This document shows positions 1 through 31,133 of a stretch of DNA of 64,000 bases, one piece after another. The translations under genes and the position numbers were made by a program. How positions within the stretch are numbered: position 1 is the stretch's first letter; each line of letters opens with the position of its first letter. Under the pieces are notes generated by a model. It had not been told where the DNA came from. It did not search any database and was given only the letters and a program-made list of their open reading frames with translations. Source of the stretch: Amphirosellinia nigrospora (lineage: Eukaryota; Ascomycota; Sordariomycetes; Xylariales; Xylariaceae). The DNA is taken from NCBI GenBank assembly GCA_004123355.1, contig SCHM01000004.1, positions 6,103,017 through 6,167,016 of the forward strand. The letters are read 5' to 3'.

Positions 1-3000
1 ATTTATTATTTAATAATAATTAATTATAAACGAAATAAACTTATAAAAAAAACGTAAAAATTTATATTATAATTTTTATTTTTTATTTTTTATTTTTATT
101 TAAATAATTTTATTTTATTTTAAAATTAAATAATAATAATAATAATAATTTTATATTTAATTATTTAAACTTAATATTAATAAAAATAATAATTAATTTT
201 TAATAATAATATTTTAATTATTATTAATAAAAATATATTTTAAAAAATATTTTTTAAAAAATTAAACTTTAATAAATAAAAAAACTTAAATTATATTATT
301 TTAGTTATATTAATATTAAATATATTAATAATATATAAAAAAATAAACTTATAATAAATATAAAAAAAAAAATAATTTTAAAAAAATAGTTTTTTTTTAA
401 AAAAAATATTTTTAAAAATTTATTAATTATAAAATAAATTTAATAAAAATATTTAAGCAGAAATTTTATTATAATTTATATTTTATATAATAATAAATTT
501 TTTTTAATTATAAATAATTTTTTTAAAAATTAAAAATTAATATATATATAAATATAAACTAATAATTATAAAAAAATTATTAAACTATTTAATTTTATTA
601 TTATTATAAATTTTTTATTAAAAAATTATAAAATATAATAATAAAAATAAAAAAAATATTAATTAACTTTTTTATTATTATTAAAAATATATAAAAAACT
701 TTTAAAAATAAATTATAATTATTATTAATTCGATTTATAATATTATTTTAAATAAACTATAATTTAAATATTATAATATTTTATTAAATTATTAATAAAA
801 TTATTTAATATTTTTATTTTAATTATTTTTTAATTATAATATAAATATTATTTAATAATAAATAAAATAAATATATAGCTATAATATTTAATTTATTAAT
901 TTAATATTAATTAATAAAACTATTTTAAAATCGAAAAAATATAATATTAATATAATAAAAAAAAATAAATAATATTAAAAATAAAAAACTAAAAATATTA
1001 TTTTAAAATATAATAATTTAATAAAAAAAATTTAAAAAAATAAAATAAATAATATTTAATTAGTTTATTAAATTTATTTTTAAAAAATATAAACTATATT
1101 TTTTATAAAAATTATTTAATTTTTATTTAAAAGTTTAATAAAAAAAGTTTTTATTATATAAAATAAAATAATATTAATTATATAAAAAAACTAATAATTA
1201 AAATATTTATTTAAATATAATTATTTTTAATATAATAATAAAAAAAACTAAATAAAAAAGTTTATATTATTAATATTAATAAAGTTAATAAAATAATTAA
1301 AAAATTAAAAAAAAATAAAAACGATTTTTTAAAAAAAAAAATAAAAAATTAAAATAAAAAGCGTAAAAAATAATTTTTAAAAAATATTAAAATTTAATAT
1401 ATATTTTTAACCGAATTAATTTTAATATATTTTTATTATATTATTTATAAATAAATTATAAAATAAAATTTTTTAAAAATAAATTTAAAATTAATTTAAA
1501 TTATAGCTTTTTATATAAAATATTATTTTAAATTAAAACTATATAAAAATTTTTAATTAAAAATTTATATAAAAGTTTTATTAAATTTAATAATATTTTA
1601 TATAAATATTTATTTTATTTATAAAAAAACAAATAATAGGTTTTATTTTTATATAAATTATTATAAACTAAATAAAATTATAAAAAAAAACTAATATTTA
1701 TTTTTTTTATTAAAAAAATTTTAGCTTATATTAATAAAGCAAAAATTTTTATTTAATATATAATAAATATTTAATTATATTTATATATTATTTAAAAATA
1801 AAATTATATAATATTTTATATAATATAATATATATTAATTATTAATATTATTATTTAGTTTTATTAATAAATTTTAATATTTTAATAATATATTAATAAT
1901 ATATTATTTAATTTTTAAATAATTTTTATAATATTACGCTAATAATATTATTATTTATTTAAAATAATAAAAAAATATATTATTTATATATATTATATAT
2001 TAAATAATTAATTTAAATTAAACTATAAATTAATTTAAAAAAGTCCGAATTTTATATTATAAAAACTAAGTTTTTAAATTAATTATTAATATTAAAAAAA
2101 ATCTAAATAAACTTTATTAAAATTAATATTATATTAAAAAAAACTTTTATATTAATTAAAAATATATAATTTTTTTTAAATTTTATAACTTTTATTAAAA
2201 CTTTATTAATATTTAAAATTATATTATTATATTTTAAACTAATTAATATAAAAAAGTATATTTTTATATAAATTAAAAATATAAAAAATTATTTTATTAA
2301 TTTAAAAAAACTTTAATATGTTTTTTTTTATTAAAATATTTTAATTATAATTATTAATAAAAATTAAAACCGATTTTTTTAATAGCGTTAATTTTAATAT
2401 ATTATATAATTTATAATAAAATTTAATATTTTATAATATATTTTTTAAAAATATTTTATAATATTAAATTAAACTATAATATTTATAATAAAAATTATTA
2501 ATAATTATATTATATTTTAAAAAATAAAAACTTAAATTAATTAATAGTTATAATAAACTTTTTTTAATATTTATTAATAATTAAATATTAAAATTTTTTA
2601 GTAAAAATAATATTTTAATTTAAAATAAACTAAATAAATTAATTTTTTTTAAAATATAATTTTTTAATATTATATTATTTTAAAAAAATAATATATTAAC
2701 TAATATTTTATTATAAAAATAAAAAAACCTAATAATATAAAAAATTAAAAAAAAATATAATATTATTTTATAATATTTTAACTAGTTAATAATATAATAT
2801 AATTAATTTTATATAAATAAAATTATATTAAATAAGTTTTATTAAATATATAATAATTAAACGTTTTTATAAAATTATAATTAATTAAATAAGTTTTTAA
2901 AAAAAAACTATAAAAATATAAATATAAAAATTTATTATTAATAAATAAAAAATAATAAGCTAAAAAATTTATAAAAACTAAAAAATAAATTAATTATATT

Positions 3001-4920
3001 TATAAACGTTTAATTATTTTTAATTTTTTATTTAAAAAATATATTTTATTAAAAAAATATATTATAAAATATTTATTATATATTTTAATAAAAATAAAAC
3101 ATATAAATTTATTATTAATATTATTAATAGTTTAAATTAAAAAAAATTATAATATTATTAATAAACTATATAAATATAAATTTATTAAAATATTTAAAAA
3201 TAAAATTTTAATAAATTTATATTTTTTTAATATTTAATATATATAGCGCTATTTTATTATTAATTTTAAATAAATATTTAAAAATAAATATAAATATAAT
3301 AATATATTAATTATAATAAACTATTTAAATAAATAAATATAATTTATTTATATATTAAAATAACCGTAAAAAATATTATTAAAATATATTATAAAAAACT
3401 TTTTTAAGTTTTTAAATATTTATAATTATAATATTAAACTATAAAGTTTAGTTTATTTTATTTTTATAAATAAGCTATATAAACTAATAAATATAAAATA
3501 TATATTAATTATTATAAAATATTATAAAATTATAAAATAAATAAAAATTATAAATAAATATATTAATTAAAAGTTATAATTATATATAAATTATTATTAA
3601 AATAATTAGTTTAATATATTTATTATAAATTATATTTAAACGTTAATTTTTTATATTTTAATAAAATTATTATTTTATAAAATTAAAATAAGTTTTTAAT
3701 ATTATTTAATTTTAATTAAAAAAATTAAACTATAAATAAAAAGTTATAAAGCTTTTTAAAAAAAAAAAAATTCGAATAAATATATAAAAAAAAATAAAAA
3801 AAATGTATAATTTATTAAATTAATTAAAAAAAACTTATAGTATATTTAAAAATATATAATTAATTAAACTAATAAAATTAATATAAATTTAATTTTAACG
3901 TAAAAACTATATATTAATTTTAAAAAAAAAATAGTTTTAAAAAATAAATCGTTTATTAAATAAGCTAGATTTTTTTATAATATAATAAATTTAAAATATG
4001 CGAAAAAAATAAAAATATTTTTATATTAAACGTTTTTATAATTTAAAAAAGTATTAAATTATTATATATAAACTAATTATAAAATATTTAATAATTTATT
4101 ATTAGGTTAAAAAGTAAAAAATTTAAAAATAAAAAAATAATAAATTTAAAGCAAAAAAAATTTATAGTTAAAAAAATGTAGACTTTTTAACTTTATTATT
4201 AAAAATTATAATATTAAATAAACTAAAAAAATTAAAAGTTTAATAATATATAATTTTATAAAAAACTTTAAAAATAATATAAAAATATTAAAAAACTTTT
4301 ATAATAAAACTTTAATTTAGTTAAACTTTTAATAAAATTATAAATATAGCTAAATATAGTATAAAATAATAATTTTAACGCGTTATATTTAAATAATAAT
4401 AAGCTATAATATAAAGGAAAAAATAATATAAAGAAAAAACGCGTAAATATAAATACTATTAAACAAAAAAAACTTTAAATAATATATAAAAAACTAATAT
4501 AATAACTTAATAATATAAAAGCTTTATAAGAATTTATATTAATAAAAACTTAAAGCGATTTTTTTTTTCGTTAAAAATAGTTATAATTTCGACTTTAATT
4601 AAATTATTTTTTTTTTAAAAAAAAAGTAGTTATAAATCTACAAGCTTTAATAGCTATGCTTTATTATTAGCTATAATACCCGTAATTTTTCTTATAATAA
4701 CTATTACTTATAATAAATATATAATTATTATTCGTAATAAATATAGTTATAATAAATAAAAGCAAGCATTAATAATAAATATAGCTATTTTATATAAAAT
4801 ATTTAAACAGCTGCTTATATTATAAACTTAAACTTTTTTTTTTTTTTATTTTATTTATAGATTTTATTATAATATATTATATACTAAAGCCTTGTTTTTT
4901 CGAATGTATAAAGCGTAACT
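1..4920 (-). mobile_element. Decayed LTR-type element, copy 1 (cut by window edge)
   Basis: This stretch matches the reverse complement of the left three quarters of the element at 15261-21970. The match is clear at the LTR (4628-4920), just inside it (around 4390-4450 against 15740-15790) and deep inside (around 1300-1390 against 18800-18890). The rest of the element lies beyond the left edge. It is a heavily mutated fossil without readable coding capacity. The superfamily (Copia or Gypsy) cannot be told. Strand is given relative to the second copy, since transcription direction is unknown. Confidence 0.75.
4628..4920 (-). repeat. LTR of copy 1
   Basis: About 290 bp, beginning AGTTATA and ending GCGTAACT. 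It aligns along its length with the reverse complement of the LTRs at 15261-15550 and 21684-21970, including the shared stretch TAGCTATGCTTTATTATTAG. The two ends are a short inverted pair (AGTTA/TAACT). Confidence 0.72.
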
Positions 4921-26800: not shown

Positions 26801-27350
26801 AAATATATAGCTATTTTTTAGGTTTTTAATTAATAGCCGATAATATTATAAAATTTTAATATTATAATAAAATATTATAAATATTTAATTATTTTAGCTA
26901 TATTATTTATAATATTTATAATAATAATGTTTTTTATATTATAAACTTATTATTTAAAAATTTATAAGTTATATAATTTATTATTAAATTTATTTAATTT
27001 ATTTTAAACTAAAAACTTTATAATAGTTTATAAATTATATTGTTTATATATTAAAACTTTATATTAAAAATAAACTAAACAATATAATAAATATAATTTT
27101 AACAAAAAATTTATTTTTATTAAATAATATTTATATATTTTGTTTTATTTTTATTTATTAGCTAAAAAAAAATATAATTTTAATAAAATAAAACTACTTA
27201 AAATATTTTATAATTCGTTACTACTAGTTTTATTTTTAGGGCACTAAAACTATAATAAGCTTATAATATTATAGTTTCCTTAAAAAAATATTATTATTTA
27301 ATTTTAATTTTAACGCTATTATATTTAAAAAAAAATATATGTATTATATA
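21971..27350. other. AT-rich RIP-like sequence, no gene recognised
   Basis: About 5.4 kb without open frames. It holds an uninterrupted run of 25 T at 23796-23820 followed by more T-rich sequence, and an A-rich purine stretch near 24,400-24,490. I could not find terminal repeats or a match to the LTR element. Confidence 0.6.
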
Positions 27351-27446
27351 AGTTACAGTGGGTGCACTGTACGACCAGATCCCAATATAGCCACTAATAG
27401 AATGCCAAGCCTCCACCTTGGTATTCCACATCCCTTTTACAGGGGG

Positions 27447-27521
27447 TAGCGCAACTGCGTAGTGGCCAGGAACGCCAATCGTGACAATACCAAGGTAACC
27501 GCAGCCTGCAGGTTCGAGCCC
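27447..27521 (+). promoter_or_regulatory. Candidate Pol III internal promoter (A box and B box)
   Basis: The A-box candidate TAGCGCAACTGCGTAGTGG lies at 27447-27465, close to the tRNA consensus TRGYNNARNNGG. The B-box candidate GGTTCGAGCCC at 27511-27521 fits GGTTCRANYCC. The gap of about 45 bp is within the range for tRNA genes and SINEs. In the partial copy the A box recurs around 27785 but the B box is missing. Confidence 0.55.
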
Positions 27522-27631
27522 TGTAGTGGTAAAAGGCCCAGCCTTTTCCGGGTGCGTATATTGGTTACTTCCCCTAGCACACAGGTGCCCTGAACGCCTC
27601 GACTAGCAGCCCTACTTGACCGCCCCGTGGA

Positions 27632-27663
27632 GGGGGGGGGAAGGGGGGGCTAGGGTTCAAGGG
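27632..27663 (+). other. Potential G-quadruplex in the SINE-like unit
   Basis: Four G runs (9, 7, 3 and 3 bases) are separated by loops of 2, 3 and 5 bases, which meets the usual G3+N1-7 pattern. It overlaps a small hairpin, GGGTTCA with TGAACCC (27653-27671). No function is known from the sequence. Confidence 0.45.
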
Positions 27664-29304
27664 ACTGAACCCTGTGTAAGGAGGGGGGAAGTTACAGTGG
27701 GTGCACTGTACGACCAGATCCCAATATAGCCACTAATAGAATGCCAAGCCTCCACCTTGGTATTCCACATCCCTTTACAGGGGGTTAGCGCAACTGCGTA
27801 GTGGCCAGGAACGCTAATCGTGACAATATATTAAATTCGCGTAATAAATTTATTAGCTTAAAAAGCTAATAAAAATTATTAGTTTATAATATTTTAAGAT
27901 ATTTTTATAGCTTTAATATATATATTAAATTTAATAGCAAAAGTTACTTTAATAAAACTTAAAAAAAATTAAAGCGTAAATATTTATTTTTTAAAAGCTA
28001 ATAAATTAAATAAATATTATTTTAAAATATTAATAAGTTTAGCCGTTTTAATATATTAATAAATTATTATTAAAGTATAATTATAAATAATAGTTTAAGC
28101 AAACTAGCTATAAATTTATTATTTAATAAATATTAATAATATAATTTTAATAATAAATTATTTAACGCTTTTAATTTTAAAAGCTTATTAAGCTAAATAA
28201 AAAGTTTTTTTAATAAAACAAAAAGCTTTTTTAATAAGGTAAAAAGCAAAAAAAACGATTTATTTTAATAATAAAAAAAATTTATTTTTAACGATAAAAA
28301 AAAACGATTTATTTTTAATAATAAAAAAAATAATTTATTTAGTTTATTTAATTTTTATAGTTATATTAATATTACGCTTTAATATTATAAAAAAATACGA
28401 TTAATTTATCCGATTTTAATAATATTTATAATATATATAAAGTTATTTTAATATTAATAAAATATTATAACGATTTTGCTAATAAAATTTTTAGCGTATT
28501 AATAAGCTTATATTAGCCGGCCTTAAATTAAATATTAAAACATAAGCTAAAAAATTTATTAGTTATTTAATTTGTTTTGCTTGAGTTTTATAAAGGAGGT
28601 ACGACTAAATAAAAAGAAGGTTTTCTTGTCGATAAAAAATTTTTTTTTTTTATATCCTAAATAGGAAATTCTTTTACCCGAATTAGGAACTTTTTTATTT
28701 TTACTTATTATTATATATATTTAGTCTTTAGTATATTTTTTATTATACGGATAATTATAAATTTAATAAAATAATTTAAGGTTAAATATTTATATTAAAA
28801 GTAATAATATAATATAAATAAATTATAAAGTTTTATTTTTAATTTTTTTTTATTATAAATTGTACTAAATTTAATTTTATATTAAATTAATTATTTAATA
28901 GTTATATGTTTTATTAAACTTAATTATTTAATAGTTATACGTTATATTAACTACGATTATTTAATATTATTCGTTTAATTATATTTATAGTTATTTTATT
29001 TTTTTATTTTTTTAATTTAATATTAATTTAAATATTTATTATTTTTAGGTTATAAACTAGTATTGCTATTATAAACCTTATTTAAATATAATTTTTATTA
29101 AGCTATTTTTTAAAAAGATTATAGTTACTATAAAATTAGCCGTTATACTAGCGTAATAAATATAGCAGTATTTTTTTATAAAGTGTTTGTTTATAACTTT
29201 TTTTGCTTATTTTTTTGTTTTTTATTATAATGTTTTAAGCGCAGTTTTTAAGTTTTTAAAGACTTTAAAGCTTTAGATTAATTATAATAAACGCGTTTTT
29301 TAAG

Positions 29305-29700: not shown

Positions 29701-30791
29701 AATTTATACTTATTAAAGAACTTTTTTAATTTTATTTAGGTTAAAAATCGTTTTAAAAATCTTAATATCGTAATAAGTTTTTTTTACCTAAAGTAAAAAT
29801 TAGTTATTCGCTGTAATATTTAATTCTTTAATTTTGTTTTGTAGCTCGAAATTATAATCTAATTATAAAGCAATAATATAATTTTAGCGTATATTGCTGC
29901 TATTAATAAAACAGATATATAAAAATACCGTATATTAACGTTTATACTTATAAGCAAATCTATTACTACTATTAATTAAACAGCCGAATATTTTTATAAC
30001 GTAGTTATGTAATTACGCAAAAAAACAAGATATTACGGTTAATAAATTAAAATAGAATAGCAAGTTCTACTATATATAACTTATTAAAAAAGAGCGAACT
30101 AGCATAACTAGCAACTATAACTTACTTATTAACCTAAATACGTAGTTCCTAAAAACTTAAGCATTTTTGCCTTTAAATTAAAGGGCCTTTAGTATTAAAA
30201 AAAATAATAAATTATAATATAATTTATTTAATAGTTTATATTTTAAAGTTTAAAAACTATTAATTTTAAAACTATATAAATTAATAAAAACTAGTAAAAA
30301 ATATTAAAAGTTATTTTTTAATAATAAATTCGCAAAAACAATCGTAAAAAAACTATTATATTAGTTTATTAAAAAAGTTTGTTAGTCCGCTTATAAAAAA
30401 GTTTTTAATAATATATAATAAAAAAACGTAATTATATACTTATTTAAAATGTTTTTTTAAACGTTTATTTTATTAAACGTTTTAGTTTATTATTTTTAAA
30501 ATTTTCGCTTATTAGCGTTAAAGCGTAGCTTTATATAATAATAGTATATAAAATTAACTGCTACTAAAATTAAAATTATTTATAAAACTTTAAATAAATA
30601 TTATATTTTTAATATAATAATCTAAAAAGTAAAAAGTATAGTTATAACTATATTAATAGTTTTTTTATTTATAGCAATAGCTCGGCAAAACTTTTTAAAA
30701 GTTTTTTTAAAGCTTTTTAACAATAAAATAAATAATCTTAGATTGCTCTTAAGCACCGTTTTACAAGTGCAGTTCTATTTAAAATAGGAAA

Positions 30792-31133
30792 TTATTTATT
30801 TATTTTATCTAATTCGGCTAGAGGAATAGGTGGAGGAGTTAGGTACGGGTTACCAGAATCTATAGAGTTGCTTGGTGGCGTAGGAGGAGGAGTAGGGTAT
30901 GGGTTACCGGAATCTATAGAATTCTGGGGGGGAGTAGAAGGGGGAGAAGGAGGAGGAGTAGGAGGAGGAATGGGATAAGGATTGCCAGGATCCATAGAAT
31001 TAGGTAGAATAGTAGGCGGAAGAGTATGATAAGGACCAGTAGCCATAGAACAGCAGGGATGAGGAAGACGAGGAGCAAGATAAAGGCTGCTAGAAGCCAG
31101 GGCACTATTAAAAAAGGAGAGGCAGACATGCAT
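30792..31133 (-). CDS. Small proline-rich repeat protein at the AT-block boundary
   Basis: Up to 113 residues. The C-terminal half has three tandem units built on NS(I/M)D(S/P)GNPYP followed by PPPTPP. I do not recognise the family. The promoter side looks real: a TATATAAA box about 200 bp upstream and a C/A-rich leader typical of well-expressed fungal genes. A GTAAGT at 31180-31175 and a T-rich TAATAG ending at 31105 could bound a 76-nt intron. In that case translation would start at the in-frame ATG near 31046 (MATGPYH), giving about 84 residues, but no good branch site is seen. The same DNA also reads as a very hydrophobic 71-residue frame from 31129, probably a side effect of the pyrimidine-rich strand. 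Its position at a RIP boundary and its low complexity recall fast-evolving secreted genes, but that is speculation. Confidence 0.42.
   Translation of the reverse strand: MHVCLSFFNSALASSSLYLAPRLPHPCCSMATGPYHTLPPTILPNSMDPGNPYPIPPPTPPPSPPSTPPQNSIDSGNPYPTPPPTPPSNSIDSGNPYLTPPPIPLAELDKINK

Follow-up and report, generated by a model that had tools for sequence, protein, structure and literature searches.

A short unit of ordinary base composition within extremely A+T-rich DNA raises the question of what kind of element it is and by which route it may have been mobilized. The window, i.e., the whole stretch of 64,000 nucleotides analyzed here, covers positions 6103017-6167016 of contig C6 in the Amphirosellinia nigrospora genome (48.1 Mb, 11 contigs). 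Across positions 1-30,000 the GC content per 1-kb bin amounts to 2.7-15.6%, except for the bin bearing the element (31.7%); it is 23% in the bin 30,001-31,000 and 40-65% in the bins from 31,001 onward. The A+T-rich blocks appear to be of the RIP type, as in filamentous fungi. The original prediction had described a 339-bp unit plus a partial copy, both of normal composition, in A+T-rich surroundings, and such a repeat was indeed found, the element having a GC content of 0.55 compared with 10% and 12% in the adjoining 1-kb bins. The first 4 kb of the window (1-4000), with 2.7-4.6% GC, are extreme even in comparison with RIP-mutated blocks. Of five window ORFs submitted to Pfam, one was without any domain; the others matched the N-terminal domain of COG2, a tRNA intron endonuclease, ankyrin repeats and, weakly, a glycosyl transferase.

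Anatomy and genomic copies of the element

The element spans 475 bp (27351-27825) and is composed of a 136-bp direct repeat, a 203-bp non-coding internal region and a second 136-bp repeat, with ATATA on both sides (27346-27350, identical to 27826-27830). A 140-nt direct repeat with a spacing of 339 nt is detected at 27350-27489 and 27689-27828 (96% ungapped identity), of which 136 bp on the forward strand, 27351-27486 (5' LTR) and 27690-27825 (3' LTR), are the repeat proper, while the leftover bases of the match belong to the flank. Both LTRs read AGTTAC...GTGACA, with like termini in other copies and solo LTRs, the differences between them being two one-base indels and a C/T exchange. LTRs usually end in TG...CA, and the AG...CA ends of the window element were counted against the LTR-element reading. 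No ORF of at least 50 aa overlaps 27351-27825. The internal region (27487-27689, forward strand) contains the hairpin AAAAGGC-CCA-GCCTTTT (27531-27547), the inverted repeat AGGGTTCA-AGGGAC-TGAACCCT (27652-27673) and the polypurine tract AAGGAGGGGGGA (27678-27689), which abuts the 3' LTR. The G-rich tail previously proposed for the unit corresponds to this polypurine tract adjoining the 3' repeat.

Genome searches returned at least 23 matches for the whole unit, at least 20 for the repeat alone and at least nine for the internal part, all of which are lower bounds, as the search scores best candidates. The unit matches resolve into one place of a second family (L023/L041) and at least 15 places of family 1, namely L001 (the window), L002, L003, L005, L006, L009, L010, L014, L015, L017, L018, L020, L042 and the chimeras L043 and L044, so that the unit is dispersed rather than single-copy. 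Five of these places (L010, L014, L018, L020 and L042) carry solo LTRs, three of which (L014, L020 and L042) have a perfect target site duplication (TSD), and L002 has the order repeat-internal-repeat-internal-repeat, i.e., it is a three-LTR copy. In L006 (1268-1823) part of the right-hand LTR is duplicated, so that three LTR-like pieces are present, and at L042 a dispersed repeat of about 237 bp is nested inside the solo LTR, which is of the LTR_A type.

Perfect 5-bp TSDs were found at 11 of the 14 family-1 places tested, with four of five positions matching in L010 and three of five in L006 and L018; the test left out family 2 as well as L005, where the array runs on and the right end is unlocated. 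When flanks were mispaired, only 2 of 182 pairs matched, none of 100,000 permutations reached 11 (maximum 7), and shifting the frame by one to three bases yielded no match, although the ends had been set at the common termini with anchors picked after the flanks were known, which means that the test was not blind. The combination of 5-bp TSDs and fixed ends argues for an integrase-type insertion as in LTR elements, and not for LINE-type retroposition of a SINE.

By its anatomy, the window element is a TRIM, a miniature non-autonomous LTR retroelement: it combines terminal direct repeats within less than 1 kb, no coding capacity, a short TSD of fixed length together with solo LTRs in the family, and a polypurine tract. 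The original prediction had raised a TRIM with terminal direct repeats as its alternative, and rightly so in view of the two-LTR, solo and three-LTR copies with 5-bp TSDs. The SINE that it had put first does not hold. A tRNA-derived SINE arranged in tandem copies would agree with the A- and B-box-like motifs, the short length and the lack of an ORF; SINEs are marked, though, by LINE-type insertion with variable TSDs, a 3' tail and no terminal direct repeats, whereas the window element has 5-bp TSDs and two LTRs. Besides the 11 perfect duplications, the family has both termini in common, its solo copies correspond to the first 136 bp only, and the three-repeat copy and the polypurine tract point in the same direction. 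We consider such a SINE very improbable and, given that solo as well as two-repeat copies are flanked by 5-bp TSDs, regard it as refuted. A structural RNA gene or another conserved host locus could explain unmutated DNA within a mutated block, but its probability is negligible with at least 15 dispersed places and the perfect TSDs at 11 of 14; in the window, ARAGORN detected no tRNA and no Rfam family reached its gathering score, which led us to dismiss the structural RNA gene. A preference of the family for Pol III genes was likewise unsupported, since ARAGORN found a single tRNA gene (at L042) among 20 loci that include all 15 family-1 places. There, the solo LTR_A-type repeat (L042:5389-5866) lies in DNA of ordinary composition, with its start some 40 bp downstream of a tRNA-Met gene.

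RIP-type mutation, chimeras and the candidate helper

The clean state of the window copy had been attributed either to its being too short to trigger RIP or to its arrival after the surroundings were mutated. In comparison with the window copy, L009 displays 137 C/G-to-T/A changes, no reverse transition and one transversion, and the corresponding numbers are 86, 1 and 8 for L005, 98, 2 and 15 for L017, 89, 8 and 32 for L015, and a mild 27, 2 and 7 for L003. In the pooled L005, L009, L015 and L017 copies, C was changed most often before A (150 of 247, 0.61), followed by T (0.45), G (0.40) and C (0.25). These four copies, which are among the longer ones, are heavily RIP-mutated, and thus the TRIM family is not exempt from RIP; for the family, the explanation by length does not hold. 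No RIP-type bias of that size was seen in the middle unit of L002 (the only part of that copy compared), LTR_A of L043 or the solo LTRs of L010, L014, L018 and L020, and L006, L042 and L044, judged by GC content alone, have values of 0.54, 0.49 and 0.53, respectively. A length dependence of RIP, with the four longer copies strongly mutated and the compared solo LTRs not, was considered and dropped because the numbers are too small for such a claim. The other explanation fits the window copy, albeit without amounting to proof; the simplest, though unproven, reading is that this copy was inserted late, when the block was already A+T-rich.

Two chimeric insertions were observed. L044 is composed of a foreign LTR (LTR_B), the internal region from the equivalent of 27528 and LTR_A inside one ATAAT duplication, while in L043 LTR_B is joined straight to LTR_A inside one TAATA duplication. 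In both, LTR_B is the left-hand partner and stops precisely at its own 3' terminus, an arrangement suggestive of a transfer during plus-strand synthesis. Following the known mechanics of plus-strand transfer, we infer that LTR_B plus-strand strong-stop DNA may have moved to the TRIM minus strand in a common particle.

LTR_B measures 216-221 bp, has at least 41 matches in the genome and forms at least four same-strand pairs 6.6-6.9 kb apart, and 14 of its last 15 bases agree with those of LTR_A. A solo copy of 216 bp (L061) has AGCGT on either side, as judged by eye. The pair on contig C10 encloses an RVT_1 reverse transcriptase match that is broken by three TAA stops; the integrase families PF00665 and PF17921 gave no match on C10, the candidate-helper copy included, so that the kind of helper is deduced from one RVT_1 match and its place. 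Self-complementarity of LTR_B, assessed in two RIP-mutated copies only (L075 and L076), was equaled by 661 of 3000 shuffles. The internal part of the TRIM matched TRIM copies only, one chimera included (at least nine places), which was counted against the explanation preferred below. The LTR_B element is a likely candidate for the helper of the TRIM. Elsewhere in the genome, five reverse transcriptase matches of equal score (C1:5499608, C1:12638343, C4:2326918, C4:7647740 and C4:7655988) lie in open frames of 757-1075 aa, each with an Integrase_H2C2 match and an rve match below the cut-off nearby. They seemingly belong to one LTR element family that is unmutated although the genome bears the marks of RIP.

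The putative self-primer and the tRNA-like boxes

The 11-bp inverted repeat mentioned in the original prediction, which gave no coordinates for it, probably corresponds to two stretches at the 5' side of the element. The sequence ACCTTGGTATT (27415-27425, forward strand) in the LTR is the exact reverse complement of AATACCAAGGT (27486-27496), which consists of the last LTR base and the first 10 internal nucleotides. The putative primer binding site (PBS) adjoining the 5' LTR is therefore complementary to the element's own LTR, and the Tf1-type complementarity of 11 nucleotides between a putative RNA 5' end and the PBS is found at 11 of 11 positions in the window. By analogy with Tf1, 27415-27425 would be the 5' end of the element RNA, the self-primer and the start of R. 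A TATAG motif (27386-27390) lies 29 nt upstream of this primer copy and may act as a promoter; the same 29 nt separate the two in L041 of family 2. Shuffled primer sites reached at least 10 pairs in 2 of 5000 cases and shuffled LTRs in 4 of 5000, and none of the other 20-mers of the internal part tested against the LTR exceeded 8. Among nine family-1 leaders, all 11 pairs are formed in five (the window, both L002 units, L009 and L015) and 10 of 11 in L003, while the site is damaged in the remaining three (a one-base deletion in L006, absent in L005 and broken in L017). In the predicted RNA fold of 27415-27496 the 11-bp duplex closes around three hairpins with a z-score of -3.75, compared with -3.05 and -3.21 for the L002 units and weak values for L003 (-0.85) and L041 (-1.31), the pairing being favored by the choice to cut the ends of the folded stretch at the duplex.

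A second TRIM family, located at L041:3995-4389 and at places on C9, C2, C4, C1 and C6, has the layout of the first but another self-complementary 11-mer. At least seven places show the LTR-internal-LTR arrangement by coordinates, the sequence itself having been read at L041 alone. Its LTR carries ACCTTGGTTAA and is followed by TTAACCAARGT; compared with family 1, both sides are altered together in three of the 11 pairs. The pattern CCTTGGTTAA...TTAACCAARGT was recovered at four of the nine listed family-2 places whose match spans LTR and internal part, and its backward control at none; at two of these four it matches both strands, which means a full 11-bp duplex there. The pattern search did not find the compensated form at the other five listed places. 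In the L041 leader 10 of 11 positions are paired between the two stretches if G-U is allowed, so that the compensation in family 2 rests on the genome pattern search.

We consider it probable that an autonomous LTR retrotransposon resident in this genome mobilizes the 475-bp non-coding TRIM in trans, with self-priming of the Tf1 type. Transcription would begin at 27415 in the 5' LTR, and the RNA would fold back with its first 11 nt onto the 11-nt site where LTR and internal region meet. The RNase H of the helper, which probably carries the 216-221-bp LTR_B, would cut behind base 11, leaving an RNA primer for extension by the helper's reverse transcriptase. Second-strand synthesis would then be primed by the polypurine tract, and the helper integrase would insert the DNA with a 5-bp duplication, while LTR-LTR recombination could give rise to solo LTRs and tandem three-LTR copies. 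We infer the start site, the RNase H cut, the use of the helper and the polymerase of the TRIM in this scheme.

The tRNA-like A and B boxes noticed originally do exist, and their positions straddle the LTR border. Scored against the A- and B-box consensus strings, the B-box-like GGTTCGAGCC (27511-27520), which is contained in a T-arm-like hairpin (27506-27526) of the internal region, agrees at 10 of 10 fixed positions, and the A-box-like TAGCGCAACTG (27447-27457) in the LTR at 7 of 8 by hand count, making it a putative Pol III box. A solo LTR consequently has no B box. In dinucleotide shuffles of the 340-bp unit, a full B box arose in 5 of 3000 cases, and an A box (at least 7 of 8) together with a B box 25-90 nt apart in none of 3000. 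The 15-mer T-arm core CAGGTTCGAGCCCTG has nine exact genome matches, every one within places of the two TRIM families, and an exact tRNA origin of the T-arm was therefore rejected, as no tRNA gene carries the identical 15-mer.

These boxes may serve Pol III or RNA structure. If they are a working promoter, the element would be a TRIM driven by Pol III (TRIMp3), comparable to Helenus or Cassandra, and the 11-bp complementarity would be an RNA structure or a secondary feature. The joint occurrence of both boxes, which no shuffle reproduced, speaks for such an element, and so do the better A box of L041 (TAGCGTAGTGGG, 8 of 8 by hand) with its identical 15-nt T-arm core, and the tRNA-like LTRs and 5-bp TSDs of fungal Helenus TRIMs, as far as the accessible text describes them (PMC10886601). 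Nevertheless, the B box lies outside the LTR, unlike in Helenus, ARAGORN recognizes no tRNA, the A and B boxes are 32 and 96 nt from the proposed start, respectively, and the TATA motif 29 nt upstream would suit Pol II too. Runs of five T are absent from the window element, while L041 has one after the B box, a possible Pol III terminator that also weighs against this reading. Taken together, a Pol III-driven TRIM of this kind appears rather unlikely. Both aspects could be joined in a lineage with a split tRNA-like module, in which an A box and an anticodon-arm-like hairpin in the LTR and a T-arm with the B box in the internal region would provide a Pol III-type promoter, and the primer site would replace the variable region; the RNA would then mimic a tRNA and prime by its own 5' end with no need of a host tRNA. 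We regard this joint reading as unlikely.

Comparison with known elements

If the preferred reading, trans-mobilization with Tf1-type self-priming, is true, a 475-bp parasite of a self-priming element would show how little sequence trans-mobilization needs. Two families in which primer copy and site differ together would support the 11-base primer rule by natural covariation, the chimeric insertions would point toward a specific helper LTR, and the mix of RIP-mutated and clean copies could be used to date insertions against RIP. Self-priming is known from larger yeast elements, and no report of a self-priming TRIM was found in the literature searched, whose coverage excludes most subscription papers; as far as we found, it would be new in a miniature element. 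TRIMs are mentioned alongside RIP in the available part of a Venturia paper (PMC4646964).

As far as the excerpted descriptions go, TRIM/SMART elements of plants, some animals and fungi share with the window element a length below 1 kb, two short LTRs, a non-coding internal region and a polypurine tract, together with solo LTRs and tandem LTR-internal arrays (PMC6934838; PMC10886601). The TRIMs in the accessible part of PMC10886601 are described with a tRNA-primed PBS, whereas the site of the window element is complementary to its own LTR. Fungal Helenus (Kojima 2024, TRIMp3) is similar in its tRNA-like A and B boxes, 5-bp TSDs and solo LTRs; according to the same partial text, its tRNA-like sequence is located in the LTR, its PBS is tRNA-primed, and the author found no complementarity between the two (PMC10886601). 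In the window TRIM, by contrast, the LTR holds the A box and the internal region the B box, with the primer site in between. The window TRIM thus falls outside the definition of Helenus, which has both boxes within the LTR. The bivalve biv-TRIM also resembles it in lacking a conventional PBS and having tRNA-like stretches in the inner domain, and is set apart by its description, in which, to the extent that the text was available, the authors cite self-priming of other elements and give no clear mechanism for biv-TRIM (PMC6934838).

The closest likeness in priming is to the self-priming Gypsy elements Tf1, Tf2 and Tj1. In the consulted portions of the literature, the first 11 RNA bases of Tf1 pair with a PBS adjoining the 5' LTR and are cut off between bases 11 and 12 (PMC7175516), and the PBS of Tj1 is complementary to the mRNA 5' end (PMC4600332). 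The window TRIM shares this 11-base complementarity to an RNA 5' end, which here is a putative one, and as far as its sequence can tell it would prime like Tf1. Tf1, Tf2 and Tj1 are coding elements, whereas the window TRIM comprises 475 bp and codes for nothing.
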